Assembly: GCA_944383695.1 (NCBI GenBank)
Contig: CALWQP010000001.1
Span: 1-64,000 of the forward strand
DNA length: 64,000 bases
Direction: 5' to 3'
From: an uncultured Mediterraneibacter sp.
GTDB lineage: Bacteria; Bacillota; Clostridia; Lachnospirales; Lachnospiraceae
The notes below the pieces were generated by a model. The model was not told where the DNA came from. It saw only the letters and a list, made by a program, of their open reading frames with translations, and searched no databases. The position numbers were made by a program, and so were the translations under genes. This document shows positions 21,084 through 59,468 of this stretch, piece by piece. The number at the start of each line of letters is the position of its first letter. Within the stretch, counting starts at the first letter, position 1.

Positions 21084-21221
21084 CTTCCTTTTTATTATGA
21101 ACAAAGAACGGACAACCCGGAGGGCAGGTTGCTTACTTCATCTTAAGATGAGACGGCCGGGCTGCCTGCCGGCTCTGGCACATCCCTTTGGATGCACGTT
21201 GCATTTTTATCTTTGTTTTCA
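21084..21221 (-). ncRNA. Probable yjdF riboswitch leader
   Basis: The 140-nt leader of yjdF is highly structured. AACAAAGA (minus strand, 21217-21210) can pair with TCTTTGTT at 21107-21100. A second identical TCTTTGTT at 21083-21076 abuts the start codon, so the 5' strand can choose between two partners, one of which would cover the translation start. Inner hairpins are GCATCC/GGATGT, GCCGG/CCGGC, the palindrome TCATCTTAAGATGA and CAACC/GGTTG. yjdF genes are classically controlled by the yjdF RNA, which senses aromatic heterocycles. Assignment rests on context and structure, not on a covariance search. Confidence 0.55.
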
Positions 21222-42702: not shown

Positions 42703-42753
42703 TATTTATTAAGAATTTAATAAGGTTTTTTCTTTTTCTTTAAGAGTTTAAAC

Positions 42754-42788
42754 ATACTTTGGACACATTTTCTGGCTATACTAAGACT
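42754..42788 (+). promoter_or_regulatory. Conserved promoter block of sRNA copy 1
   Basis: TATACT at 42777-42782 and the upstream GACACATTTTC (42762-42772) are shared with the block before the second sRNA copy (59303-59322), at the same distance from the 5' hairpin. The space between TTGGAC and TATACT is only 12 bases, so this is not an ordinary sigma-A promoter. Confidence 0.5.
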
Positions 42789-42930
42789 CAGATAGTTGAT
42801 AAAACAACTATCTCCCCCCTCATAAAGTAAAGGCATCCCGGGGGACCGGGATGTCGCACTTTACTCTCATTCCTTTAGATAACTAATAAACACGAAACCC
42901 GTTAGCCCTTGTGGTTAGCGGGTTTTCGCT
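42789..42930 (+). ncRNA. Candidate structured C-rich small RNA, copy 1
   Basis: About 140 nt. A 5' hairpin (GATAGTTG/CAACTATC) is followed by single-stranded CCCCCCTCATAAAG. Next is hairpin 2 (AAAGT ... ACTTT enclosing GCATCCCGG/CCGGGATGT), the linker CTCATTCCTTTAGATAACT, and the terminator hairpin (AACCCG ... CGGGTTTTCG). Copy 2 at 59329-59468 has the same order, with compensatory changes in hairpin 2 and the terminator. The C-run is complementary to Shine-Dalgarno sequences, so an antisense action on mRNAs is conceivable. The terminator of this copy appears to come from the integrated element. Confidence 0.6.
42866..42884 (+). repeat. attL core
   Basis: CTCATTCCTTTAGATAACT, identical to 50264-50282. 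It lies in the linker of sRNA copy 1, just before the terminator hairpin, on the int side of the element. A third, near-identical copy (one extra T) is in the undisturbed sRNA copy 2 at 59398-59417, which shows the pre-insertion form of such a site. Confidence 0.65.
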
Positions 42931-42956
42931 GTTCATAGGACTGTCCCGCATGCCTC

Positions 42957-42976
42957 GTGGACAGTTTTGGGACAGT
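42957..42976 (+). repeat. Subterminal direct repeat, left (probable integrase arm site)
   Basis: GTGGACAGTTTTGGGACAGT. The partner at 50137-50156 matches at 19 of 20 bases in the same orientation, about 90-130 bases inside each end. Such repeats usually are arm-binding sites for the integrase N-terminal domain. Around both, additional TGTCCC/GGGACA words occur. Confidence 0.55.
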
Positions 42977-43030
42977 TCCATTCCAAAGGAATTTCGCACT
43001 TTTCATTTTATCTCTATATTCTTTCTTATC

Positions 43031-44236
43031 TCAGATTATCTCCTGATATAAATTTTGTAGCTTGTCCATTTCCGTCTTTGCTTTATCATTCGTAACGTGT
43101 GTATACAAATCCAGTGTAATCGCTATGGAATAATGTCCAAGAAAGCCCTGCACGACTTTCGCTTCAATCCCTGCTTCAAAACACCTTGTCGCAAATGTGT
43201 GCCGGAGTGCATGAGGATAAAAATGCTGTATGGGAATAAACTCTGTCTTTTCCTTTTCTACCCTCTTTCTGCGCTCCTTATTGATTGCCTTTTCTATCCC
43301 GTCCAATGTCACCTGAAAGGAATGTTCCGTAATCGGCTTCCCGTTCTTCCCTACAAACACCAGATTTTCAAATCCGCTCAACGGTTCCCACTTATCAGAA
43401 AGCATCTGCATTTCCTTTTTCTGAATACGCTGACGTTTCAACGCCTTGTAGACGCTTTCCTGCATGGGGATTATCCGTATACTGTTCTTTGTCTTTGGTG
43501 TCTGATATTTGAACACATATTTCTTCGTCTCCAAATCCTTGATATACACAAGTGTTTTATTGACATGGATTTCTCTCTTCTGAAAATCTACGTCGTCCCA
43601 TGTAAGCCCCAGAAGCTCACCGCCCCGCATACCCGTACCGAGTGCCGTCACAATCAAATGTTCATGCAGTCTGCCTTTCGCCTGCTCCAGAACTTCCCTC
43701 TGTTCTTCCACAGTCAGTACACGGATAGGCTTTGTCTTTGTTTTCGGAATATCCACCCCCGCACACGGATTAAATGTGATAAGACGGTTATGTACCGCAT
43801 ATTTAAACATGGCATTGAGGATGTTATATACATCCCGGATAGTTTTTGTACTGTAATCCTTGTCTGCCATATCCTGCAACAAGCGTTCTAATATCATCGG
43901 ATTAAAGTCTGCCACCCGGTATCTTCCTATCTGCTTTTCCATGTACCGGCGATAAAAATCATCATATCGCACTTGTGTACTTTCTTTTATCGACTTCCGC
44001 TTATGCGTATTCAGCCAGACATCAAACCATGCGTTCAAGGTCACATTGTCGCCTTTGCCTTTCAGCCCATGCTTGACCTCATACCGCAGTTCTTCCATTT
44101 GCTGAATAAGTTCCTTTAAATCCGCATTGTCTCTTGTGTATATCTCGCCTTTGTACTGAAAACGTCCCCGGTAATTTCCATTTTTTCTCTGCACAATCCC
44201 GTCCGGCAACGTATTTCCTTTTAAGTCCTTGCCCAA
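43031..44236 (-). CDS. int: Tyrosine recombinase (integrase)
   Basis: 401 residues from a TTG at 44236, which has AAAGGAG 8 nt upstream; the longer frame to 44314 overlaps xis and has no site. Catalytic residues are visible: Arg in GTGMRGGELLGLTW, the HALRHTFATRCFEAGI box, and the Tyr in TLDLYTHVTNDKAK. An N-terminal arm-binding domain (RKNGNYRGRFQYKGEIYT) and a core-binding SAM-like domain precede. It is oriented toward attL, as usual for Tn916-type elements. Confidence 0.93.
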   Translation of the reverse strand: MGKDLKGNTLPDGIVQRKNGNYRGRFQYKGEIYTRDNADLKELIQQMEELRYEVKHGLKGKGDNVTLNAWFDVWLNTHKRKSIKESTQVRYDDFYRRYMEKQIGRYRVADFNPMILERLLQDMADKDYSTKTIRDVYNILNAMFKYAVHNRLITFNPCAGVDIPKTKTKPIRVLTVEEQREVLEQAKGRLHEHLIVTALGTGMRGGELLGLTWDDVDFQKREIHVNKTLVYIKDLETKKYVFKYQTPKTKNSIRIIPMQESVYKALKRQRIQKKEMQMLSDKWEPLSGFENLVFVGKNGKPITEHSFQVTLDGIEKAINKERRKRVEKEKTEFIPIQHFYPHALRHTFATRCFEAGIEAKVVQGFLGHYSIAITLDLYTHVTNDKAKTEMDKLQNLYQEII

Positions 44237-44303
44237 TCTGCACGCTCCTTTCCGTGCAAGGACTATCAGAACTGGTCTGACAGTATTATAATCGCACCTC
44301 TGT

Positions 44304-44600
44304 TCATACCGCAATCACTTCATACTTGTTTTTTATGTTCCGTCCCTCATTTTCCCTCAAAAATCTGTCCAGAACCTCTGTCCGTATCAATATCTTGTTC
44401 CCGATACGGACAACGGGCAGTTTCTGCCATGCAATCAGTCTGCGCAGGCTATTCCTGCCAATCCCGGTATAATCAGACGCTTCATTGACTGTCAGCGCCA
44501 CTTTATATTGTATCGTCGTCTGTGCTGTGTCCTTTTCTCCCGTCCCTCTCCACGCTCCTTTCTCTTTCTTCCAGTCGGTGTATCTTGATATAGTCCTCAT
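44304..44600 (-). CDS. xis: Excisionase / HTH_17 DNA-binding protein
   Basis: Up to 98 residues. The core LTVNEASDYTGIGRNSLRRL followed by PVVRIGNKILIRTEVLDRFL is a winged-helix DNA-binding domain of the Tn916 Xis type. The first 33 residues overlap the relaxase gene in another frame and may not be translated; a GTG at about 44498 would give a 65-residue protein closer to Tn916 Xis. It should direct excision together with Int. Confidence 0.75.
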   Translation of the reverse strand: MRTISRYTDWKKEKGAWRGTGEKDTAQTTIQYKVALTVNEASDYTGIGRNSLRRLIAWQKLPVVRIGNKILIRTEVLDRFLRENEGRNIKNKYEVIAV

Positions 44601-45628
44601 ACAGCCTTTGTTGTGTCTCGTTCATCTCTGCGCTCTCCAGGAGCATTTGGAGATAATCTTTATCCTCTGCCTTTCCAATCTCCGAAAACAGCTTAAGAGA
44701 GGGAGCGACAGCCGTTGTCAGCCAGTTCCAGATTTTATCCAGCGTTTTCTTTTCCGGGTTCATGGTCAGCTTTATCTTCTCCACATCTGACAGAAAATCC
44801 GCCCACGGCTGATAGGTAAGGTAAAGCCGTTTCCTCATTGCCCTGCCGTCCGCAGGCTTTTGCAGAAACCGCACTTTATCCTTTAAAACTCCCATTGCCA
44901 CCCGTGCCACATCCCGGTACTCGATAAGCTCCTGCACCGCCCTCACCGCTTTTTTCTGCCGGAAACGCAGTTCGTATCTGTTCCAGTTCACATCTAACTC
45001 TTTGCCGAACTTCTCATGCTGTTCATATCCCTTTTCATAGAATACAATCCGAAAATCACTGCTCTCACTTCCAATATACAGACTCTTTCCTTTTGCTTCT
45101 ATCTCATCCTCTTTCAGACGGTCTGAACGGTGTTCCTTAAAGTCCCTCATCTGACTGGATATAAGCCCCTCATTTTTCAGACGGATAAGCTCTGGGATAT
45201 ACAGATAAGGCTTTCTGTCGTCAATCGCCAAATCTATCCGTGGAAAGTTTACATGGTATCTGCACACTCTCTCCAGAAACTCAAACCATGTCTCTTTGTT
45301 AATCTTAAGAAAGTTCTCATAATTCCTGCATCCCGAACCGCTCATGAGTATCTGGAAGCCCTCATACTGGATGTTCCCCGTAGGCTTGAGAATTTTGATA
45401 TTGTCAAAGCCCGCCACAAGTTCATGCCCTGCAATCGCCTTTCCTTTACAGTGAAGCTCCATAAGATTTAAAGGAATACGCAGGATGTCCTCTATAATCG
45501 TAAACACGTCCAGACCTTTGACTGTAATCTGGCACCAGTCAATCAATGCCGACAGTTCTTCTTTTTGTCGTGTTACCCCCCTGTTAGTATAGGGGGGTTG
45601 TTCATTTTTTGTTGTCTCCGTTCATCAT
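44503..45628 (-). pseudogene. mobT: MobT/Rep_trans-type relaxase with a frame break near the start
   Basis: About 365 residues of a replication-initiation/relaxase protein (Rep_trans family, as Tn916 Orf20 and ICEBs1 NicK). The body is intact: LIDWCQITVKG, GSGCRNYENFLK, FPRIDLAIDDRKPYLYIPEL, NRYELRFRQKKAVRAV. The natural start, ATGATG at 45628-45623 with AAAGGCAGGG upstream, is in a different frame. An A6 tract (45610-45605) has one base too many to join it to the body, which then reads NEQPPYTNRGVTRQKEE. It is either a recent frameshift or expressed by slippage on the A-tract. Confidence 0.75.
45576..45597 (-). other. oriT: Origin of transfer (oriT) inside the relaxase gene
   Basis: On the minus strand CCCCCC-TATACTAACA-GGGGGG forms an inverted repeat followed by TAACA. 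Tn916 and ICEBs1 have an oriT of the same form (run of C, then CTAACAGGGGGGT), and in ICEBs1 it overlaps the 5' end of the relaxase gene, as here. The expected nick lies in the loop-side sequence; its exact position cannot be read. Confidence 0.75.
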
Positions 45629-45742
45629 CCCTGCCTTTCTTAGCTTCCCGTGGCTTACGCCACGTCCCCGGACTCTTCCCTGCTCCCTTGCTCCTTTCAC
45701 GTTGTACGGAGCAGTCCGCAGGAAAGCTCCGGGAACCTGCCT

Positions 45743-46075
45743 TTACACGTTGCCTTTGCCGGAGACAGAACGGATACCCTTGCAGGTCACACGCTCCACC
45801 AGAACCGGGAAATTGCCCCTCTGCACATACGGGTCATAGACAGCGTTTTCCAGTTCCACCACCGCATACGGCTCAATCTTTGGAAGCTCCGTGGCTTCAA
45901 GCCGGATGTCCACGCTGTTCCCTAACTTTGCGCTTCCGAGGTGGAGTTTTAAGGCTTCCACTTCATCTGTCCTCTTCCGGCTCTCTTTGTCATATTTGTA
46001 GCAGTTGTCCGCTCCCATGTACCGCAGTTCTCCAAATACATCTTTTATCTGTTCCTTTGTCAGATTGATAAGCAT
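45743..46075 (-). CDS. DUF961 (YdcP-like) element protein
   Basis: 110 residues. GELRYMGADNCYKYDKESRK, then RTDEVEALKLHLGSAKLGNS, matches the DUF961 proteins encoded at the start of the conjugation module of Tn916-like elements (Orf22/23, YdcP). Function unknown, probably linked to DNA processing. In complete elements an FtsK-like gene stands between it and the relaxase; here only about 110 bases remain. Confidence 0.85.
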   Translation of the reverse strand: MLINLTKEQIKDVFGELRYMGADNCYKYDKESRKRTDEVEALKLHLGSAKLGNSVDIRLEATELPKIEPYAVVELENAVYDPYVQRGNFPVLVERVTCKGIRSVSGKGNV

Positions 46076-46157
46076 ACAATATCCTTTCTCCCCGTTTCAC
46101 CGATAGGTCAGTGTCCTCTATTTTCTGTTTATTATTCAGCAATATCGGGCGCGCCAA

Positions 46158-46241
46158 AAAGTTTAGATATTTCTGAACTATTTGTATCTTAACATCCTTT
46201 CGCCACATTTGCAACATAAAGTTTAGTTATTTATAAACTTT
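46158..46241. promoter_or_regulatory. Two operators between DUF961 gene and repressor
   Basis: AAAGTTTA-N8-TAAACTTT at 46218-46241 is a perfect palindrome; AAAGTTTA-N8-TGAACTAT at 46158-46181 is an imperfect copy. Centres are 60 bases apart. They lie in the divergent region and are the likely targets of the Xre repressor that starts at 46325, controlling the excision/transfer genes. Confidence 0.6.
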
Positions 46242-46324
46242 TTCTTTCTTTTTTCTTCTGCTCGTGATATAGTAGTCCTAGAAACAGTGGATTGACCTTA
46301 AAAGGAAAGTTGAGGAGAACAGAT

Positions 46325-47017
46325 ATGAATACGATTGCGGAGCGGATTAAATTTGCTATGGAAGTGCGGAAAATGAGACAAGTGGAATTAGTACAGAAAA
46401 CCGGGATAAGCAAAGGAGCGTTCAGTTCCTACCTCTCCGGGAGCTATAACCCAAAGCAGGACAAACTGGAACTGATCGCTGACGCTCTGAACGTAAACAT
46501 AGACTGGCTCTTAGGAAAAAACGTTCCTATGCAAATCCCCACAAAGGGCGTTGTCACCGGGCAGGCTTCCCCTCTCCCCTATGTTTTTTACAAAGAAGCG
46601 GAGTATCTGGTGAATGATGTGGACGACACCTACACCGCCTATATGCCACAGTACAGCGCACTCATTCCGAGGTTTCATGTGATTGTAAACACAAGCTGTA
46701 ATGAAATGCACATGCTCCCCCTTTTCTATCGGGATGACTCCGAAGAGTATTATGATTGTCCGGCTGACCTTACCATGCCGGAAAGACATCAGATTTACAC
46801 AAAAGACTTTGACAGTATCGGGATGTATCTGGAGACTTCCCGTATTATCTACTACGGGATTGACAAAGAAAACTGCAAGCCGAAAATCACCGCCCTTATC
46901 TATTCGACGGAAAAAGGCTGTTATGAACGCAGACCAGAGGCACAAGGTCTGCCTAGAGATGTATTTCAGAAAGAAATAGAAAAGGAAGCTCTCTTCCTCG
47001 AAAAAAATCATCAGTAA
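46325..47017 (+). CDS. Xre/CI-type repressor of the element
   Basis: 230 residues; the start at 46325 follows GAGGAG. The helix-turn-helix is MRQVELVQKTGISKGAFSSY, then LSGSYNPKQDKLELIADAL (about 15-60). The C-terminal 160 residues are beta-rich and do not show a LexA-type Ser-Lys protease, so induction by self-cleavage is unlikely. It is divergent from the transfer genes. Confidence 0.85.
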   Translation: MNTIAERIKFAMEVRKMRQVELVQKTGISKGAFSSYLSGSYNPKQDKLELIADALNVNIDWLLGKNVPMQIPTKGVVTGQASPLPYVFYKEAEYLVNDVDDTYTAYMPQYSALIPRFHVIVNTSCNEMHMLPLFYRDDSEEYYDCPADLTMPERHQIYTKDFDSIGMYLETSRIIYYGIDKENCKPKITALIYSTEKGCYERRPEAQGLPRDVFQKEIEKEALFLEKNHQ

Positions 47018-47023
47018 CGCACA

Positions 47024-47058
47024 AGAGGACTTGCAAGGCTGTGACCTTTCAAGTCCTC
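47024..47058 (+). terminator. Hairpin after the repressor gene
   Basis: GAGGACTTGCAAGG and CCTTTCAAGTCCTC pair with one mismatch and a 6-nt loop, 7 nt after the stop codon. No strong T-run follows. A homologous hairpin with the same flanking words (TAACGCACA, TATCATG) is at 53256-53293. Confidence 0.5.
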
Positions 47059-47151
47059 GTCTGTATCATGGTTATATTGACAGTGTCCGTTCTGTAAAGG
47101 ACTGCCCTACGGCGTCTCGGCTTCGCCTTGTTCCTTTACCTCACTAAAGTT

Positions 47152-47871
47152 TTATTCAAGAAAATCAATACTGCTTCCAAATCCTGTCACAATATATACA
47201 GCAGACGACTTCTCATTATTTCCCACCATATCAAGAAACTTTCGAGCTTCTATAACAATATTTTGCCCGTATCTTATCCCTGCAATATTTTCCAGTCGAA
47301 AGAACAACTCAATTTTCAAGTTGTTTACATTATCTATTTGTATATTTTCTATCTCAAACCATATTTCCTCTTCTTTATATACAACTTTGATTGAACATGG
47401 AATTATTACGTCTTTCTCATTTATTTTCGCACTTAAAATATCTAAATTTAGAATAACATCCTCTCCAACATTTTTTAAGCATATTTTCATAACAGGCAAA
47501 GCTGAAATATCACTCCTGCCCAAACAATCAGTTGGATTTTCTACTTTCACTTCTTGATAGCCATTCATTTGTATAATTTCATGATTTAAAGATAAAACTC
47601 TCTTTTGTTCGTGCACTTTTCTTAGTTCAAAATATCCAATTTTTTGTCGAAGTTGCTGTTTTATTAGCCTATTATTAACTTCATCCGCACATACATTTTG
47701 AAATAGAGCAACTGCCGCCAATAAAACAGTCCCAAAATACGCCATATAACCATACCAGAACTCTGCATTATCAATAATAATCTTATCAAAAAATCTCCAT
47801 GCAACAATTATTCCCATAAAAGGTAATAATAATGCTATACATCCTAAGATTATTACACTACTTCTTTTCAT
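47152..47871 (-). CDS. Membrane-anchored protein of unknown function in the R-M cargo
   Basis: 239 residues. Two N-terminal hydrophobic segments (SVIILGCIALLLPFMGIIVA and YGYMAYFGTVLLAAVALF), then a short charged helix and a soluble beta-rich domain (about 110-239). It starts 19 nt after vsr and is codirectional, so it belongs to the methylase transcript. I recognise no family. It could be an accessory of the restriction system or an independent defence protein. Confidence 0.6.
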   Translation of the reverse strand: MKRSSVIILGCIALLLPFMGIIVAWRFFDKIIIDNAEFWYGYMAYFGTVLLAAVALFQNVCADEVNNRLIKQQLRQKIGYFELRKVHEQKRVLSLNHEIIQMNGYQEVKVENPTDCLGRSDISALPVMKICLKNVGEDVILNLDILSAKINEKDVIIPCSIKVVYKEEEIWFEIENIQIDNVNNLKIELFFRLENIAGIRYGQNIVIEARKFLDMVGNNEKSSAVYIVTGFGSSIDFLE

Positions 47872-47890
47872 TTCTCTATTGTCCTCTTTA

Positions 47891-48367
47891 CTACTGTTTA
47901 ATTTCGAAGTCTAACGGTTCGCCCAGCCAATCATTATCATTTAAAGATATTTCAAATAGAGTTTCCTCTATGACTCTTACACACTCATCTGTATTTTTCA
48001 AAATATCTTTTCCCCAAAATCGAATAACCGTCCATCCTAGAAACAATAGCTGTTTATCGACCTCTTCATCATGTTCTCGGTTTCTTGAAATTTTCTTAAC
48101 CCAATAGTCGCTATTTTTCGATTTTTCTAAACGAGGTTTTAATACTTCCCAATCCTTTCCATGAAAGAACTCACTATCGCAAAACACTACAACTTTATAT
48201 TTCGTAAAAACAATATCCGGCTTTCCCGGTAAAGCAACATAATTTTTTCTATAACGTAAGCCTCTCTTCCACAATGCTTTACGCAGAGCCAACTCTATCT
48301 TTGTGTCTTTATTTTTTATATGTTGCATATTTTTTCTTCTTTGCTCTACGGTTAAGTTATCTGCCAT
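47891..48367 (-). CDS. vsr: Very short patch repair endonuclease (Vsr)
   Basis: 158 residues. Starts with the zinc/DNA-binding RRKNMQHIKNKDTKIELALR, then YRKNYVALPGKPDIVFTKYK and FCDSEFFHGKDWE with the catalytic Asp and His, and TVIRFWGKDI. Vsr nicks T:G mismatches formed by deamination of 5-methylcytosine, so it repairs damage from the partner methylase. It lies 24 nt after that gene. Confidence 0.93.
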   Translation of the reverse strand: MADNLTVEQRRKNMQHIKNKDTKIELALRKALWKRGLRYRKNYVALPGKPDIVFTKYKVVVFCDSEFFHGKDWEVLKPRLEKSKNSDYWVKKISRNREHDEEVDKQLLFLGWTVIRFWGKDILKNTDECVRVIEETLFEISLNDNDWLGEPLDFEIKQ

Positions 48368-48391
48368 ATTATCACCAAACTGATTTGCAAA

Positions 48392-49366
48392 TCATTTCAT
48401 TGCTTCTAATATGTTATCTGCTATTCTTTTGATTACAGGTACACATACTGAATTTCCTGCTTGTTTATATAACCTTGCGTCACTCTGTTTTTTAGGCAAT
48501 TTATAATTCTTTGGAAATCCCTGCGTATTAAAACATTCTCTTGGTGTCATTTTCCGCAATCCATACTTTGTTTTCACTATGCAGACATTATGGCCACCCT
48601 CACCTTGATTTGCAGTCAGAGTAGGTACAACACCACTTTTATTCTGCCGTACATATTTTCTCCGCCATTGATATATTGCCGGTTTTTTTAAATCGTCATT
48701 TTTAGTTGCCTCTACCAAAAGTTTGTATATATCTCCCTTATATTTTCCTTCTGTATAATAATATTTTTCATCAACCTTTTTATTAAAATCAATGACATCT
48801 TTGACTGTCGTAGTTAATGGTATCGGCAACGGCCAGTGAAACTTATTGAAATCCTCACTTTCACGAAATGCCACAATGTAAATACGTTCTCTATTCTGTG
48901 CCATATTTCCATAATTCATAGCGTTTAATACCTGTGATGTATAATAATATCCCAACAAATCTAACTGCTCACAAATAACCCTAAATGTATTCCCGTTGTC
49001 ATGTCCTGCTAAGTTTTTTACATTTTCAAACAATGCAACCTTCGGTCTTTTTGCTTCTAACATACGTACCAGTTCAAAAAATAATTCTCCACGTCCTTTT
49101 TCATCATCAAAACCTTGTCTATATCCTGCTATTGAAAATGCTTGACACGGAAATCCACCAATTATAATATCTGTTTGTGGCACATCCTCAACCGGCACAA
49201 TATGAACATCCCTTTGATCAACTTTTACTCCTGGGAAATTAAGTTCAAAAGTTTCACTTGCATATTTATCAAATTCATTTGCATATACTGTCTGGAACTC
49301 TCCTGTTTGCTCAAACCCTAAATCAATTCCGCCTACTCCTGCAAAAAACGAAGCAATACTATACAT
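48392..49366 (-). CDS. DNA (cytosine-5) methyltransferase
   Basis: 324 residues from the ATG at 49366 (AGGAG 11 nt upstream; a GTG at 49378 is possible). Motif I ASFFAGVGGIDLGFE, motif IV GGFPCQAFSIAGYRQGFDDE with the catalytic cysteine, motif VI FENVKNLAGHDNG, motif VIII QNRERIYIVAF and motif X QAGNSVCVPV are all present. It protects DNA at the site cut by the neighbouring endonuclease. The recognition sequence cannot be read directly; GCNGC is likely if the endonuclease call is right. Confidence 0.93.
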   Translation of the reverse strand: MYSIASFFAGVGGIDLGFEQTGEFQTVYANEFDKYASETFELNFPGVKVDQRDVHIVPVEDVPQTDIIIGGFPCQAFSIAGYRQGFDDEKGRGELFFELVRMLEAKRPKVALFENVKNLAGHDNGNTFRVICEQLDLLGYYYTSQVLNAMNYGNMAQNRERIYIVAFRESEDFNKFHWPLPIPLTTTVKDVIDFNKKVDEKYYYTEGKYKGDIYKLLVEATKNDDLKKPAIYQWRRKYVRQNKSGVVPTLTANQGEGGHNVCIVKTKYGLRKMTPRECFNTQGFPKNYKLPKKQSDARLYKQAGNSVCVPVIKRIADNILEAMK

Positions 49367-49474
49367 ATCTATTTTCACTCCTGCTAATTAGAATATGATT
49401 TATATTATCATAAATCGCGGCGCGCCGCAATCTACAACTTGAAAAAGCAGAGATAAAACACTCCGCCTTTCGTA

Positions 49475-50044
49475 TTATTTACCGAGTAGTTTTTGGTAGT
49501 ATTCTGATAATCTGTCGTAAGCCTTGCATCTTCGAATATCGAAAATAATGTCAGGCTCTAAATTTTGTGCGTCTACAAATAATTGTTGCAGACTCACATG
49601 AGGTCGTCTTCCCTGTTCTTTTTGGTCTTGGATTGTTTGAGTTCTATTTGCGGGATATTTTCCAAATTCTTCCGAGTTAATTTTCAAGTCATAGATATAC
49701 AGCAAGTTCTCGTCCAAATTAAATCTCAAAAATACCAAATCGTCAAATTCACATTTCGGCCCAAAAGAAGACAAATCTCCTTCAAAGCGGGAAGTTGCTT
49801 TAAATTCGATTTTCTCACCCGTTTCCGGGTTTGTTGCGTCACCGACTTCACTGCCACGATTCCATAAATAGCCTAAGCAATAACACCCCATAGGCTCACT
49901 AATTGCATCCGGCATATTTATTCCTCTGTGACTATTGTTAGAAATATACGTATTCAGGTCTTTCCATTTGAAGTAGGCATTACAAGTTTCATCAATTCTG
50001 GCTTCGTCAATTTCAATAAGCCCAAATTCATTATATATTGCCAT
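49475..50044 (-). CDS. Bsp6I-like type II restriction endonuclease
   Basis: 189 residues. The stretch GSEVGDATNPETGEKIEFKA, then TSRFEGDLSSFGPKCEFDDL, has the D...E-x-K arrangement of a PD-(D/E)XK nuclease and resembles the RE_Bsp6I family, which cuts GC^NGC. It is first in the R-M transcript, followed by the methylase and Vsr. A likely promoter with an extended -10 (TGGTATACT) lies near 50079-50107. Family assignment is from memory. Confidence 0.7.
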   Translation of the reverse strand: MAIYNEFGLIEIDEARIDETCNAYFKWKDLNTYISNNSHRGINMPDAISEPMGCYCLGYLWNRGSEVGDATNPETGEKIEFKATSRFEGDLSSFGPKCEFDDLVFLRFNLDENLLYIYDLKINSEEFGKYPANRTQTIQDQKEQGRRPHVSLQQLFVDAQNLEPDIIFDIRRCKAYDRLSEYYQKLLGK

Positions 50045-50136
50045 ATTACCTATTAGAGTGTTTTATCTCTACCCCAAAAGTATACCATACTTCCTTTGTT
50101 GTGACACGCTTTTAATTTTTTATTTTAATCTGTCCC

Positions 50137-50156
50137 GTGGACAGTTCTGGGACAGT
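50137..50156 (+). repeat. Subterminal direct repeat, right (probable integrase arm site)
   Basis: GTGGACAGTTCTGGGACAGT, 19 of 20 bases as at 42957-42976, same orientation. It is surrounded by further TGTCCCG/CGGGACA words. Confidence 0.55.
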
Positions 50157-50263
50157 ACGGGACAGCAAACTGCAACACAGCACGAAAAGAACACATTAAA
50201 AGAAGCCCGTATTTCCGGGCTTCACAGCACTTTATAACACCATATAAACCAATCCGATAGTCC

Positions 50264-50335
50264 CTCATTCCTTTAGATAACTTATAAAAACGACGAAACC
50301 CGTTGACCAAAAGGTTAACGGGTTTTCGTTGTCTA
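50264..50335 (+). pseudogene. attR and the displaced 3' end of sRNA copy 1
   Basis: Starts with the att core CTCATTCCTTTAGATAACT (50264-50282) and continues TATAAAAACGACGAAACCCG, then a perfect terminator hairpin (GTTGACC/GGTTAAC) and GGGTTTTCGTTGTC. This tail resembles the intact sRNA copy 2 (TTATAAAACGGCGAAA ... GGGTTTTCGTTGTT) more than the tail at attL does. I infer it is the original chromosomal end of the sRNA gene, cut off by the insertion. Confidence 0.6.
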
Positions 50336-53374: not shown

Positions 53375-56300
53375 TCAGGATCTTTCTCGCCTTTTGACCC
53401 ATAAACATATACACGTTCCTGCACATACTGCCAGCAGCATCAGCCACAGCGCCGCATTTTCCGTATCGCCTGTCTTTACAGCTTTATCATCCGCCGCTGC
53501 GCCACTTACTGTATTATTACCTGCGCCTATCCCGAGGCCTGTCCCCGGTTTGCTGTCCGAACCTGTTCCTCCTGTCCCCGGCTGCTTTTCCACAAGACTG
53601 TTTAGTGCAGTTCTGAGCTGTGCTGCTGCAGTATTTACTCTGTCCTGCTCACCTGTGGAAATATTCTCATCTCCCAGGATCTCCCCGGCAGCTTTCAAAG
53701 CCTCATTGAGGACGGCCACGCTCTCCTCTGTATATTTACCTGAAGCAACAGCTGCATTTGCCGTTTCTATGAGTGTATTCAGCTCTGTCTTGTCCGCCTT
53801 AAGCGGAAGATTGCCCATTGCAGCAGTCAGCGCGTTGAAGCTCGCGTCTATCTGATCCTGCGTAACGGTTGTGTCACCGGCATTCATTCTGTTAAGAAGC
53901 TCCTGGACGGCCGCCATTGCCTTCTCAAGCTCTGCCACTGCGGATGGAATGACGCCTTCTGTTGTTATCTTTTCAGCACTCTCCAGCGCCTTTTCCAGAT
54001 CCTCTGCAGAAAGCTTCAGTTCATACTTGACAATATAGACTTCCTCTTCATTGGCTGTGCTGATCTGCCAGCCTGCCTCCGAATACGCGCCGCCTGATAC
54101 GTTATACTCATACGGCGTCCCATCCTCCTGATATTTCGGAACGACCAGATCCGCTTCCACTGTATCCGACAATGCGTGAGATGATGTGACGTTTACGATC
54201 TCCGTCTGGCTTCCGCCCTTGATGATCAGTGATACAGTATCAGGTCGCTTTCCGGATGCATTATCATTGTCGGTCCAGCGCACTTCTGTGTCCAGCACAA
54301 CGGACCTGACTGCATGTACTTTAAATCCATCGCCCACAGTACCGGTGCATTCATAACGGTAGCCCTCTTTCTCCGTACTGCTGTCAAAGTCTTCTGTAAT
54401 GCAGTATACTTCAAAGGCTGCTCCCAGCTCCGGGTCTACGTTTTCAAATGCGTCTGTCCAGCCATTGCTCTCGGACAGTGTAAGCGTTTCGCCATCAATG
54501 ATCTTTCCATCAACTTTCAGCCCGACTTCTACACTTGCCGGACGCTCACTATCGCTGTCATCTGCATCCTGCCAGTCCATAGACACATTGATCTCGAACG
54601 GCTCCGGAAGGATCGCTCTGTAAACGTGGATCTCTCCAATGCAGGCCAGTTTGTGCTGGATCCCATTGAAACTGTCTGTCACCTCAACTTTGATCCTGTC
54701 AGCAGTCACTGGTTCGCCAAAGATCACCTCTCCATTTCCGTTTGTACCTTCTTCGAATGAGAAGGAGTGAACCTCCTGCCATTCTTCTTCTCCTGTTTTC
54801 GAATAAATCGTCGCAGCTTTCAGGAATCCGTTATTTCCGCTCGTTTTACCCTCAAAACTGAGCTTTCCGACGAGTTTCTCTCCTCCAAGTCCGAACTCAA
54901 TGGACTGCGGGAGTGGATCACTATCAATGAGTGTCCCATTTTCGTTCTCCGTATAGCTTATATGCCATGCACTTCCCGGATCACCGTCAAACGCAAACTC
55001 CGGACCGCCGTCCCTGTATTTCTCCGGATCCTTGGAAGATGTCGCGCTACAGTCCTCAGCCATCACGCTCTGAGGGATTTCTTCGTATGTGATCTCAGTC
55101 ACAGGACTTCTCGTTGTGGCCGGTTCAGTCTCGATTTGTCCCGGCTCTCCGTTCAGCCTGATAATGTACTCATTTGTAACAAGCTGATTCTCGGACTGCA
55201 CGATTACCTTTGCCACGCCGGACTCATCTGCCGGAACCACTGTCACTGCCGCGTTTCCTCTTGATCTTGCCGTGATGACCGCATTCGCCGGATCTTTCGC
55301 CTCGGCTGCGTAGCCGCCGGCATTTATTTCTCCTGCCACAAAGCCGTCTACTTCTTTTCCGTCAACCGTAAGGCTGTCCAGAACCGCGGAATCATTCATC
55401 GTATATCCAAATGCAGTCGTCCAGATCTCCGCCTCTTTCAGTCCCACATATCCGTTGCCCTGCTGTGTCATTGTGATACGCACGCCTTTGACACTGCGCG
55501 GTGCGTCAAGGGTGAACGTTGTCTCGCCGTCCGCCGAATAATCTGTCGCCGTAAATCCGACATCGCGGAAGTCCAATCCGTCCTCAGCGACCTGGATATT
55601 CACATTTTCCGGCACGCTCACATTTGCGTCTGTGAAGAACCACAATTTAATTGTATCAATCTCCTGTGCCTCAGTCCATGTAAATGTGATAAACGGAGAA
55701 GAACTCTGGAGATGGTCGTTCCAGTTCGTCCAACGCGCCTGCGGATCGTTAACAACATTGTTCACGCCGTCGACAATGGAAAGCAGATTATCTGCCGGCA
55801 CTCCGCAGCTCTCTGTCAGGCTCGCATATTGAGGCGCCACGTTGACCGGATCCATGGTTTCTCCTTCTGCCACGCGGACCGTTGTATGTACTTTGTATGA
55901 GACATCTTCCGATACGTTCACAATTCCCGTAACAGTAATGACATCATCTACCTCCGCAACATCATCGGCAGTGATCTCGTCCCACGCAACAGGATACTCG
56001 CCGTATTCATCTCCGTTTTCCAGGATTCCGGATACTGTTGCCGGAAGCGCCGGGACCACGCCTGCGCTCGTTGCCCTGGAATAGTTTTTAAACCCGGCAA
56101 AGACAGGCGTTACATGGAGAAATGCCTCCACGTCTATTGTCTCCTCTCCGACAGTGAGCACGCCATTCAGCATGTACTCTCCCGGAGAGTTGTATATTTC
56201 TTCCGAAACATCTTCCCAAGCGATCGTGCCCTTCGCAGACCTGCCATCGCTCATTGTGACGTCCACCTCTGTCTGCAGTTCCGGAGCAGTTCCCATTGTT

Positions 56301-59101
56301 ACAGTGTACTCTTTAGTAATCTCATAATCTCTTACATAAGCGGGCCCCTGCTCGTCTCCCACCGTATTGACTGTCACTGCGCCGCCCTCTAAACCGGAGG
56401 ATTCTGCTCTCAGAGTGAACCCGCCTGCCTTGCCCGTACTGCGCACGATAACCAGCGCTTTACCGGAAAACGCATCAATATTGGCGGTCTTTTCACTTGT
56501 GAGAACGCTGGGCTGCTGGAACTTATCCGTGGTGGATGGATTCCCGTTGTCAACGCCTATGATCTCACCATTTCCTGTCAGGCTGAAACGGATGTTATTT
56601 CTGGCTGAGCTTACAAACCCGCCCTTTCCGTCCAGAACATCAACGGAAATATAAGAGAGGCTGCTGCCGTCCGCCTGGATCTCGCTCTTCTCAGCCGTCA
56701 CTTTCAGGCTGGCGCCCTCATCGCTGTTAGTGGTGACATGATCAAGACCATATGTATCCTCGATCAAATTTCCGTCCGAATCATATGCCTTCGCACTCAA
56801 TATACCTTCCTGGTACTGTACGCTGAACTGAGCAGCCATCTGCTTCCATTCCTGGCTTTCATTGACTGCTGTGCATAGTCCTGCATTATCCGATTTATTA
56901 GTATAAGTAGAATATGAATACCCTTCGCCTGTCTTAAAATCATTTCTTGTGGCCGTACCAATCTTCACATCATTCAGATACAGTTCCACTTTTGCCGCGT
57001 TAGAGTACACATAAACCGGAACTTTCCCATTGTTGATGACCAGGTCTTCTTCATTCCAGCTCTGCGGAACTACGTGGAGCGTCGTCTTATCTTCCACCCA
57101 CTGGCTGGAATAGAAGTAATAGGAATCTTTCGGGAATCCCGCGGTGTCGATCACACCGAAAAAGCTGGAGTTGGGAATCGCCTGATTTCCGCCCACAACA
57201 CTCCCTGTTCCTGTGCCGTTCCACGCGCCTGTTCCGGTTGGCTCTCCGATATAGTCAAAGCCTGTCCAGATAAATTCTCCCATGATAAAATCATTCTTTA
57301 TCGTATAGTACCAGGATTCTCTCGCTGTATTTCCCCATCCCACACTTGCCGTATCGTACGCTGTACACTGATAATCGCCAAATTGGGAAGTAGACGACAA
57401 TGTGTTATAAATTCCGCGGCTGTTTGCAGGAGACGCAGTCTCTGTACCCACCAGCGGCCATTCCGGCTGCTGACTGTGTTTGCTTGCATACTGCGTAGGA
57501 TAGTAATTGAGACCCACAACACCGCCCGCATCAAAAAGCTTCTTGTCGATCGTTGTACGAAAATCCGACTGACTCCATGTAGACTGGTTATCTCCCATGG
57601 TGATCGGCTTCGTATCATCAATATCCTTGATCCACTTGATCAGGTTATCCGCGATGCCCGGGTATGTCGTCTGTGAATCATTTCCAGCCGCACATCCTGT
57701 GGGCAGCTCGTTTCCGATGGACCACATCACTACCGACGGATCGTTTTTATCACGGTTGACTGTTGACTCGAGAACGAACTGAGCCCAGGTCATGTCCGAT
57801 TTTCCGCCGATAACGTAATTATTCGCTCCAAGCGTTTTGTTGAATTCTTTTCCGAAATCATTGACGTTTCCGTTCTTATAGTTTGTCCAGCCGTCAAAAA
57901 TCTCGTTCATGACAAGGATGCCTTCTTCATTGCAGATCGAGATCAGCATGTCAGAAGGAACATTATGGCTTGCGCGGATCGCATTGCATCCCATGCCTTT
58001 GAGGATCTCCACCTGTCGCTTCACCGCATCATAATAAGATGCGGCGCCAAGAGCTCCCTGGTCATGATGCATGCACACACCCTTCATCTTCACGTTCTTG
58101 CCGTTCAGTTTGAACCCAAAGTTTGCGTCATATTCCAGATAACGGAAACCGAATTCTGTCTCATAAGTATCAAGCACATCGCCGTCTTCCACGATCTCTG
58201 TCTGTACATAGTACAAGTTCGGATTGTCGCAGTCCCAAAGAGCCGGATTGTTGACTACAACCTCCTGCTTTACAGTCTGTTCCGCATCCTGACCGATTTC
58301 AACCGCTTTCTCGGCCGGTGAACTTACAGTCTTTCCCTGGGCATCCAGAACTGTGGTGCGCACCGTTACCGTTCCAGATGTGCCTCTTTCATTCTTTACG
58401 TCCGTCTCCACATGGACCGTCACATCACCGCCCTGCTGTTCTTCAAGCTGAGGCGTTGTCACATAAGTACCCTCATCTGCCACATGGATATCGCCAGATA
58501 CGCTCAGTGTCACGTCCCTGTAGATTCCGGAGCCGGAATACCAGCGGCTGGATGGGAATTCATTTACAGCCTTGACAGAGATCACATTTTCTGTTCTTCC
58601 GTCACAGGTCACATAGTCAGAAATGTCCAGTGAGAAATCATTATATCCGTAAAAGTTTTCACCGATCTTAGTTCCATTCACATAAACATATGCGTGATTG
58701 TACACGCCGTCAAAATTCAGCGTCAGAGTCTTTCCCTTATAATTTTCCGGGAATACAACCGTCTTTCTGTACCATCCTGTTCCGCCTGGGAGGAAGCCGG
58801 ATTCCGCCTCATACTGAGCAGAAAATTCCTGATCCATGCTGAAGTCGTGCGGAAGCTGGATGTCTTCCCACTGGGAATCGTCAAAATCCTTTTGACCCGC
58901 ATTTTCTGCCTCGCCAAGATGGAATTTCCATCCGCTGTTAAAATTTCCTTTTTCTGCTTTCGTCTCCGGAACGAACATTTCTGACTGCTCTGCCTGAGTA
59001 TCTTCTGCATCTTTTGCCGCAGCCGGTACGCTGACACTTCCTAGGACAGTGACAGCAGCAAGACACGATGCCAGCCACCGCGCTTTTACTTTCTCTTTCA
59101 T
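53375..59101 (-). CDS. Multidomain cell-wall GH2 glycosidase (beta-galactosidase-like)
   Basis: 1908 residues from 59101 (GAGGAGG). Signal peptide 1-29; GH2 sugar-binding domain about 50-200; Ig-like domain to about 320; TIM barrel with acid/base E near 465 (MWSIGNELP) and probable nucleophile E near 554 (PLVGTETAS). Then Ig-like and DUF4982-type domains, Big_4-like repeats, two F5/8-type carbohydrate-binding domains, two Cna-B-like repeats (RPASVEVGLKVDGK, RPDTVSLIIKGG) and FIVAR-like helical repeats. The end, KTGDTENAALWLML to RRERS, is a sortase-type wall anchor with a non-canonical LPXTG. It probably attacks host or dietary glycans outside the cell. Confidence 0.9.
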   Translation of the reverse strand: MKEKVKARWLASCLAAVTVLGSVSVPAAAKDAEDTQAEQSEMFVPETKAEKGNFNSGWKFHLGEAENAGQKDFDDSQWEDIQLPHDFSMDQEFSAQYEAESGFLPGGTGWYRKTVVFPENYKGKTLTLNFDGVYNHAYVYVNGTKIGENFYGYNDFSLDISDYVTCDGRTENVISVKAVNEFPSSRWYSGSGIYRDVTLSVSGDIHVADEGTYVTTPQLEEQQGGDVTVHVETDVKNERGTSGTVTVRTTVLDAQGKTVSSPAEKAVEIGQDAEQTVKQEVVVNNPALWDCDNPNLYYVQTEIVEDGDVLDTYETEFGFRYLEYDANFGFKLNGKNVKMKGVCMHHDQGALGAASYYDAVKRQVEILKGMGCNAIRASHNVPSDMLISICNEEGILVMNEIFDGWTNYKNGNVNDFGKEFNKTLGANNYVIGGKSDMTWAQFVLESTVNRDKNDPSVVMWSIGNELPTGCAAGNDSQTTYPGIADNLIKWIKDIDDTKPITMGDNQSTWSQSDFRTTIDKKLFDAGGVVGLNYYPTQYASKHSQQPEWPLVGTETASPANSRGIYNTLSSTSQFGDYQCTAYDTASVGWGNTARESWYYTIKNDFIMGEFIWTGFDYIGEPTGTGAWNGTGTGSVVGGNQAIPNSSFFGVIDTAGFPKDSYYFYSSQWVEDKTTLHVVPQSWNEEDLVINNGKVPVYVYSNAAKVELYLNDVKIGTATRNDFKTGEGYSYSTYTNKSDNAGLCTAVNESQEWKQMAAQFSVQYQEGILSAKAYDSDGNLIEDTYGLDHVTTNSDEGASLKVTAEKSEIQADGSSLSYISVDVLDGKGGFVSSARNNIRFSLTGNGEIIGVDNGNPSTTDKFQQPSVLTSEKTANIDAFSGKALVIVRSTGKAGGFTLRAESSGLEGGAVTVNTVGDEQGPAYVRDYEITKEYTVTMGTAPELQTEVDVTMSDGRSAKGTIAWEDVSEEIYNSPGEYMLNGVLTVGEETIDVEAFLHVTPVFAGFKNYSRATSAGVVPALPATVSGILENGDEYGEYPVAWDEITADDVAEVDDVITVTGIVNVSEDVSYKVHTTVRVAEGETMDPVNVAPQYASLTESCGVPADNLLSIVDGVNNVVNDPQARWTNWNDHLQSSSPFITFTWTEAQEIDTIKLWFFTDANVSVPENVNIQVAEDGLDFRDVGFTATDYSADGETTFTLDAPRSVKGVRITMTQQGNGYVGLKEAEIWTTAFGYTMNDSAVLDSLTVDGKEVDGFVAGEINAGGYAAEAKDPANAVITARSRGNAAVTVVPADESGVAKVIVQSENQLVTNEYIIRLNGEPGQIETEPATTRSPVTEITYEEIPQSVMAEDCSATSSKDPEKYRDGGPEFAFDGDPGSAWHISYTENENGTLIDSDPLPQSIEFGLGGEKLVGKLSFEGKTSGNNGFLKAATIYSKTGEEEWQEVHSFSFEEGTNGNGEVIFGEPVTADRIKVEVTDSFNGIQHKLACIGEIHVYRAILPEPFEINVSMDWQDADDSDSERPASVEVGLKVDGKIIDGETLTLSESNGWTDAFENVDPELGAAFEVYCITEDFDSSTEKEGYRYECTGTVGDGFKVHAVRSVVLDTEVRWTDNDNASGKRPDTVSLIIKGGSQTEIVNVTSSHALSDTVEADLVVPKYQEDGTPYEYNVSGGAYSEAGWQISTANEEEVYIVKYELKLSAEDLEKALESAEKITTEGVIPSAVAELEKAMAAVQELLNRMNAGDTTVTQDQIDASFNALTAAMGNLPLKADKTELNTLIETANAAVASGKYTEESVAVLNEALKAAGEILGDENISTGEQDRVNTAAAQLRTALNSLVEKQPGTGGTGSDSKPGTGLGIGAGNNTVSGAAADDKAVKTGDTENAALWLMLLAVCAGTCICLWVKRRERS

Positions 59102-59174
59102 GAACCTTCGTCCTCCTCTGATATAAATTAATGAGTATTTCCCCATTACTTAAAATATCGCATAATATATTTCG

Positions 59175-59203: not shown

Positions 59204-59302
59204 TAATTTTATACATTTTTGTGCATTTTGCCACTCTGTTATATTCTTTTTACTATCTGTTTAGAATTTTTCGGGTTCTTTAATAATTCACTCATATTTT
59301 TG

Positions 59303-59328
59303 ACACATTTTCCCTTTATACTTTATGT
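59303..59328 (+). promoter_or_regulatory. Conserved promoter block of sRNA copy 2
   Basis: GACACATTTTC (59302-59312) and TATACT (59317-59322) at the same distance from the 5' hairpin as in copy 1. The shared block suggests common regulation of both RNAs. Confidence 0.5.
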
Positions 59329-59468
59329 TAGATAGTTGATTAACAACTATCTTCCCCCCTCATAAAGTTAAGGCACTACGAAGTGTCGCACTTTACTCTC
59401 ATTCCTTTTAGATAACTTATAAAACGGCGAAAAACCCATCAGTCAAAAAGCTGATGGGTTTTCGTTGT
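59329..59468 (+). ncRNA. Candidate structured C-rich small RNA, copy 2 (uninterrupted)
   Basis: Same order as copy 1: GATAGTTG/CAACTATC hairpin with a shorter loop, CCCCCCTCATAAAG, then hairpin 2 AAAGT ... ACTTT enclosing GCACT/AGTGT (T-A in copy 1 is C-G here). The linker CTCATTCCTTTTAGATAACT follows, then a terminator stem AACCCATCAG/CTGATGGGTT with different but complementary bases, then TTTTCGTTG. Because both stems are rebuilt with different bases, selection on RNA structure is likely. It lies between the GH2 gene and a lipoprotein remnant, read away from GH2. Confidence 0.6.

Follow-up and report, generated by a model that had tools for sequence, protein, structure and literature searches.

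Two small RNA (sRNA) genes in the window (the whole stretch of DNA analysed, 64 kb from an uncultured Mediterraneibacter sp.) belong, as judged from sequence, to a multicopy family of regulatory sRNAs that is specific to Lachnospiraceae and new to Rfam. The predicted long-form RNA opens with a 5' hairpin. An exposed CCCCCCUCAU comes next, then a second hairpin that varies and covaries, then ACUCUCAUUCCUUUAGAUAACU, which is invariant, and finally an intrinsic terminator; the comparisons given below indicate that this structure is kept by selection. Taken as a whole, the evidence makes it probable, with considerable room for doubt, that these are C-rich sRNAs controlled by a two-component system that pair with translation starts independently of Hfq.

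Both copies show the same order from 5' to 3': promoter, hairpin AGATAGTTG/CAACTATCT, CCCCCCTCATAAAG, variable hairpin, CTCATTCC(T)TTTAGATAACT and terminator. The word CCCCCCTCATAAAG occurs exactly twice within the 64-kb window. An earlier note on this DNA had described two stretches with common blocks, and both copies were found in place when the sequence was checked; a third copy, comprising the 3' half only, had been overlooked. The parts of the RNA are as follows.

about 42790..42930, + strand: predicted long-form transcript of sRNA copy 1 (covariance-model score 150 bits, E 1.8e-32; fold z -6.3)
about 59330..59468, + strand: predicted long-form transcript of sRNA copy 2 (covariance-model score 144 bits, E 6e-31; fold z -6.5)
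42790..42813, + strand: 5' hairpin of copy 1, AGATAGTTG/CAACTATCT, sequence-invariant (fold and alignment)
42814..42822, + strand: exposed motif 1 of copy 1, CCCCCCTCA(T), invariant, predicted unpaired probability about 1.0
42824..42866, + strand: hairpin 2 of copy 1, with a variable covarying tip (fold, covariation and arm-swap energies)
42866..42884, + strand: exposed motif 2 of copy 1, CTCATTCCTTTAGATAACT, which is also the left att core of a mobile element
42893..42928, + strand: terminator of copy 1, of a mobile-element type (CCCTTGTGGTTAGCGGG; signature counts at integrase-adjacent copies)
59354..59367, + strand: motif 1 of copy 2, CCCCCCTCATAAAG
59398..59417, + strand: motif 2 of copy 2, CTCATTCCTTTTAGATAACT
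50264..50331, + strand: third copy, 3' half only, with the linker and the displaced original terminator of copy 1

Copy 2 is adjoined by a gene for a 1923-aa GH2 beta-galactosidase-like surface protein (53375-59146, - strand) with Big_4, F5/8 type C, Cna_B and FIVAR domains.

Fold energies were compared with those of dinucleotide shuffles, giving z scores of -6.3 for copy 1 and -6.5 for copy 2, and 0 shuffles equalled either. The covariance model that had been proposed as a check was built for the long form from 92 copies. Since the copies are related and not independent, the covariation figures for these 92 distinct copies from many species are not formal probabilities: 97.2% of pairing cells were paired against 89.6% in shuffles, double-sided compensatory cells numbered 173 against 34 expected, and none of 500 shuffles reached any covariation measure. 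Shifting the partner by one column left pairing at only 28-45%. For hairpin 2, the arms of the same copy paired with a mean energy of -15.6 kcal/mol, versus -8.4 +/- 0.33 when arms were swapped between copies (121 distinct hairpins), which upholds the earlier view of covariation in this hairpin as a sign of selected structure. The same cannot be said of every stem: the 5' hairpin does not vary in sequence and shows no covariation, so its stem lacks that support and may have another role. The loops of hairpin 2 and of the terminator vary among copies, and motif 2 is nearly letter-invariant over dozens of genera; both motifs are predicted to be unpaired. One copy (L055:17896-18095) has TGAGTCTT in place of CCCCCCTCAT with the remaining RNA unchanged, a possible natural loss of motif 1.

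The family is widespread within Lachnospiraceae. A nucleotide search gave matches in 56 of 57 other Mediterraneibacter genomes, usually two to six each, and carrier genomes overall had one to six. With the long-form model, 81 of the 397 Lachnospiraceae genomes searched gave a match at E<=1e-3, and in about 43 the match was strong (E<1e-9). Weak matches of 80-90 nt to this model turned out to be a short form, present in many genera, which lacks hairpin 2 and the second motif: the same promoter style and 5' hairpin are followed by CCCCCCUCAUAA and then directly by a terminator, for a length of about 85 nt compared with about 140 nt for the long form. Matches to a core model of the segment common to both forms were obtained in 99 of the 299 Lachnospiraceae genera at E<=0.01 (89 of 299 at E<1e-4); outside Lachnospiraceae, 391 genomes at class level and 399 at phylum level gave marginal matches only. 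Downstream of the C-run and CTCATAAG in one short-form locus (L093:1502-1570) lies CTTATGAGGGG, an exact inverted repeat, which would bury the motif inside the terminator stem.

No match at the gathering threshold of Rfam 15 was obtained for the copies in the window or for five short-form loci, and the earlier note's proposal of a previously unrecognised structured sRNA family, for which it had named an Rfam match as a potential refutation, is borne out by structure, covariation, a promoter of its own and presence in about 30% of Lachnospiraceae genera. The sole gathering match within the window was an Azaaromatic (yjdF) riboswitch at 21092-21220 (- strand, 54 bits). Weak Rfam matches (miRNAs, sX5, NrrF and others) fell mostly on the terminator hairpin and were taken as chance. 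The family's sequence words were absent from the literature searched; a supplement of 3161 candidate RNAs from the gut (PMC8040213), unread in that search, may include the family unnamed.

The best plausible Rfam match was to RsaE/RoxS (RF01820), to which the earlier note had likened the RNA. The likeness consists of a C-rich unpaired region ahead of the terminator hairpin and a weak covariance-model resemblance (23.0 bits for copy 1 and 21.5 bits for copy 2, full model), but these scores lie far under the gathering score of 79, by which membership was ruled out. The aligned region is missing in the short-form relatives, the core is absent from the other Bacillota sampled, and no intermediates were seen in Bacilli and Clostridia. 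Descent as a diverged member of RsaE/RoxS is accordingly the least credible of the alternatives considered.

The upstream block common to both copies, which had been counted among the blocks of the RNA, is not part of the RNA and is, on sequence grounds, a dedicated sRNA promoter.

42753..42782, + strand: promoter of copy 1, with an 11-bp direct repeat CATACTTT-N3-CACATTTT, a TATACT -10 and no -35 hexamer (exact match to the family pattern)
59293..59322, + strand: promoter of copy 2 (one mismatch to the family pattern)

Nearly all copies have a TATACT (or TATAAT) -10 without a -35 hexamer, and the main promoter element of the family is CAYACTTT-N3-CACATTTT, a direct repeat with a period of 11 bp. 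Among long copies, 203 of 216 have this repeat, and among short copies 15 of 22; a spacing of 10 or 12 bp was seen in none of either set. Many promoters carry an additional upstream TTAAG-N6-TTAAG, also with 11 bp. All 178 matches of the promoter PWM in 849 kb of loci, a set enriched for sRNA loci, were at sRNA genes; in eight whole genomes the pattern likewise lay mostly at sRNA genes, with a few three-mismatch strays at about the level of a reversed-pattern control. Direct repeats of this kind are typical for regulators of the OmpR/PhoB type.

The promoter and terminator also bear on whether the RNA could be a leader, attenuator or 3' UTR element acting in cis on a neighbouring gene. In Mediterraneibacter the RNA often directly follows a LysM/GH25 gene in the same orientation, as such an element might, but it has its own promoter and terminator, its neighbours vary by genus, copies commonly stand in tandem and the genes downstream are in many cases oppositely oriented. 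A cis-regulatory role was set aside on this genomic context, and we regard it as very improbable.

A candidate for the regulator is encoded beside the sRNA in many genera. It is a response regulator (Response_reg and Trans_reg_C) whose nearest NCBIfam model is VanR, with a score below the cut-off, and its partner histidine kinase is about 870 aa. An ortholog was present in 31 of 32 long-form genera sampled versus 14 of 39 genomes that lack this form, a co-presence that is confounded by phylogeny; the regulator also occurs in sRNA-free genera. The kinase match was full-length in the carrier genomes examined and in non-carriers mostly covered the C-terminal half or less. The distance from regulator to sRNA copy was below 3 kb in 22 of 31 genera and below 20 kb in 26; close linkage was missing in nine of the 31, and in the window's own genome the ortholog is unlinked, on a different contig (G000:C5:74560). 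In the mechanism that we propose, this VanR-like response regulator of the OmpR family would bind the 11-bp repeats and activate sRNA transcription. In about 15 genera (L107, L111, L116, L119, L123, L125 and others) the sRNA and the response regulator have as a neighbour the gene of an orphan protein that consists of a Spo0A C-terminal DNA-binding domain only. As a general regulator it was rejected, being absent from the window's genome, two other Mediterraneibacter and many carriers.

Copy 1 is the insertion site of a mobile element whose 19-nt direct repeat, CTCATTCCTTTAGATAACT, forms the left att core at 42866-42884 and the right att core at 50264-50282.

42866..50282, no strand: integrated mobile element, 7.4 kb, between direct repeats of CTCATTCCTTTAGATAACT
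43031..44314, - strand: tyrosine integrase of the element (Pfam Phage_integrase 6e-28)
44503..45546, - strand: Rep_trans protein, rolling-circle initiator or relaxase of the element (Pfam Rep_trans 3e-59; MobT model below cut-off)

The element also carries restriction-modification genes (C5-methylase, Vsr and a Bsp6I-like restriction enzyme). The locus has an integrase, a mobilization protein and direct repeats on either side within a specific target, and so fits, from its sequence, an integrative mobilizable element (IME). The insertion site is the 3' part of the sRNA gene. The terminator of copy 1 appears to be element-derived and the original terminator to be the one now at 50264-50331; the CCCTTGTGGTTAGCGGG type was found in 12 of 13 integrase-adjacent copies versus 12 of 130 others (duplicates removed). 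Related integrases follow sRNA copies in other species and in a different genus. The same arrangement recurs in L108, which belongs to another genus, and in the complete genome L041, which has a displaced 3' half of its own about 6 kb off. The most economical reading is that the 3' end borne by the element restores the sRNA upon integration: the element would recombine into the linker and supply its own 3' end, leaving the sRNA intact. Because the terminator of copy 1 would have been brought by the element, its difference from that of copy 2, presented earlier as covariation, is not clean covariation and is in part a replacement, with no coupled substitution within one lineage.

These observations raise the question of whether the copies are repeats spread by an integrase-bearing element and not kept by the host for a function. 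The linker is the element's att core, and many copies, in different genera, have a terminator of the element type, as such spread would produce. However, no integrase was found behind 130 of the 143 distinct copies with enough flank, the element carries the 3' half only, and the promoter and 5' half are conserved both in element-free copies and in the short-form genera, which have no att sequence. We therefore consider this origin slightly less probable even than a role in cis. An origin from phages or plasmids was weighed and set aside: a single IMG/VR contig had a full copy (L209), close to the end of the examined stretch, and the att-plus-terminator word was in no IMG/VR contig searched. 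IMEs with Rep_trans proteins have been reviewed, with tRNA and protein genes as the listed targets (PMC5704250). The present element resembles them in its tyrosine integrase, its Rep_trans protein and its integration in the 3' part of a gene that is restored by the element's repeat, but it has integrated into the gene of a small RNA; neither 'sRNA' nor 'small RNA' appears as a term in that review (PMC5704250).

As regards mode of action, motifs 1 and 2 contain anti-Shine-Dalgarno (anti-SD) words (CCCCCC, UUCCUUU) and the anti-AUG word CAU. The C-run and CUCAUUCC may serve as pairing segments of the sRNA, and the earlier suggestion that the C-run pairs in trans with Shine-Dalgarno sequences is plausible. 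We propose that two C/U-rich, CAU-containing single strands would pair, in trans and without Hfq, with ribosome-binding sites and start codons, that pairing at the ribosome-binding sites would block translation, and that the several gene copies would set the dose and allow a graded response. Hfq was found in none of four carrier genomes, while positive-control genomes gave matches. Anti-SD complementarity comes cheaply to any C-rich RNA, and in motif 1 the C-run precedes CAU, the opposite of the order for contiguous pairing with SD, spacer and AUG. The complementary SD words GAGGGG and AGGGGG precede 1-2% of genes only, so the C-run could be selective. When duplex energies were calculated for 560 genes in an uncontrolled search, the best pairing of motif 2 was with two zinc-ribbon genes; as a group, zinc-ribbon genes paired better (n = 8, p about 0.002), a grouping chosen after the top matches were seen. 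As predicted targets chosen post hoc, they are only a lead. Zinc-ribbon proteins are also encoded near sRNA copies (L047:11809-13167, L054, L058, L069 and L051), and for some of these genes the translation start shows unusual complementarity to motif 2 or to motif 1.

An alternative reading is an RNA that mainly binds protein, as a decoy or RNP scaffold, with the invariant hairpin and single strands forming a protein site in place of mRNA seeds. The stem of the 5' hairpin is conserved in sequence beyond pairing, the invariance of motif 2 over dozens of genera is stricter than is usual for a multi-target seed, and the Hfq result in the four carrier genomes is likewise in keeping with it. The motifs are nevertheless C/U-rich with CAU, like those of proven anti-SD sRNAs, there are no conserved CsrA loops of the GGA type, and the loop of hairpin 2 varies freely. 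We consider protein binding as the main role unlikely, and favor pairing with translation starts.

For pairing of this kind, the closer functional analogues appear to be the csRNA and LhrC multicopy families and not RsaE/RoxS, because of copy number and the linked two-component system; RsaE/RoxS is usually a single gene. The best reading is that the sRNA works like the streptococcal csRNAs or Listeria LhrC, with no homology implied. The csRNAs of the CiaRH regulon, with 2-6 copies per genome, are alike in an unpaired stretch between two hairpins that contains anti-SD and CAU (anti-AUG) words, and their promoters are driven by CiaR through 11-bp-spaced repeats, TTTAAG-N5-TTTAAG (PMC3091779). 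The present family is likewise multicopy, with such words in CCCCCCUCAU and CUCAUUCCUUU. The CiaR box itself is absent here: a subset of promoters has TTAAG-N6-TTAAG, and the universal repeat is CAYACTTT-N3-CACATTTT. Sequence and lineage also differ, the long form adds a covarying hairpin and a second motif, and in place of CiaR the linkage to the VanR-like response regulator points to two-component control. LhrC1-5 of Listeria are under LisRK two-component control, do not need Hfq for their target, and have three redundant UCCC sites in loop, linker and terminator (PMC4132741). The likeness lies in multiple copies and redundant C/U-rich motifs, in C-rich sites that carry anti-SD/anti-AUG words in part and, presumptively here, in two-component control and Hfq independence. 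Unlike those of LhrC, the motifs here lie in two single-stranded linkers and not in loops or terminator; similarity to LhrC was compared through Rfam only.

The Lachnospiraceae, of whose regulatory RNAs very few are known, rank with the most abundant bacteria of the human gut. The sRNA family merits consideration as a new Rfam family, and the small-RNA gene would be an added landing site for integrative elements. The putative operator is all but confined to sRNA genes, and the VanR-like two-component system linked to them may act wholly or mainly via the sRNAs, converting a signal into a graded, Hfq-independent anti-translation RNA, with mobile elements having evolved a non-inactivating insertion; this extension is tentative and rather doubtful. 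GacA, which signals through RsmY/Z, is a precedent for such an arrangement. A multicopy family present in roughly one third of genera, with an adjacent candidate regulator, would make post-transcriptional control testable in bacteria that apparently lack Hfq.
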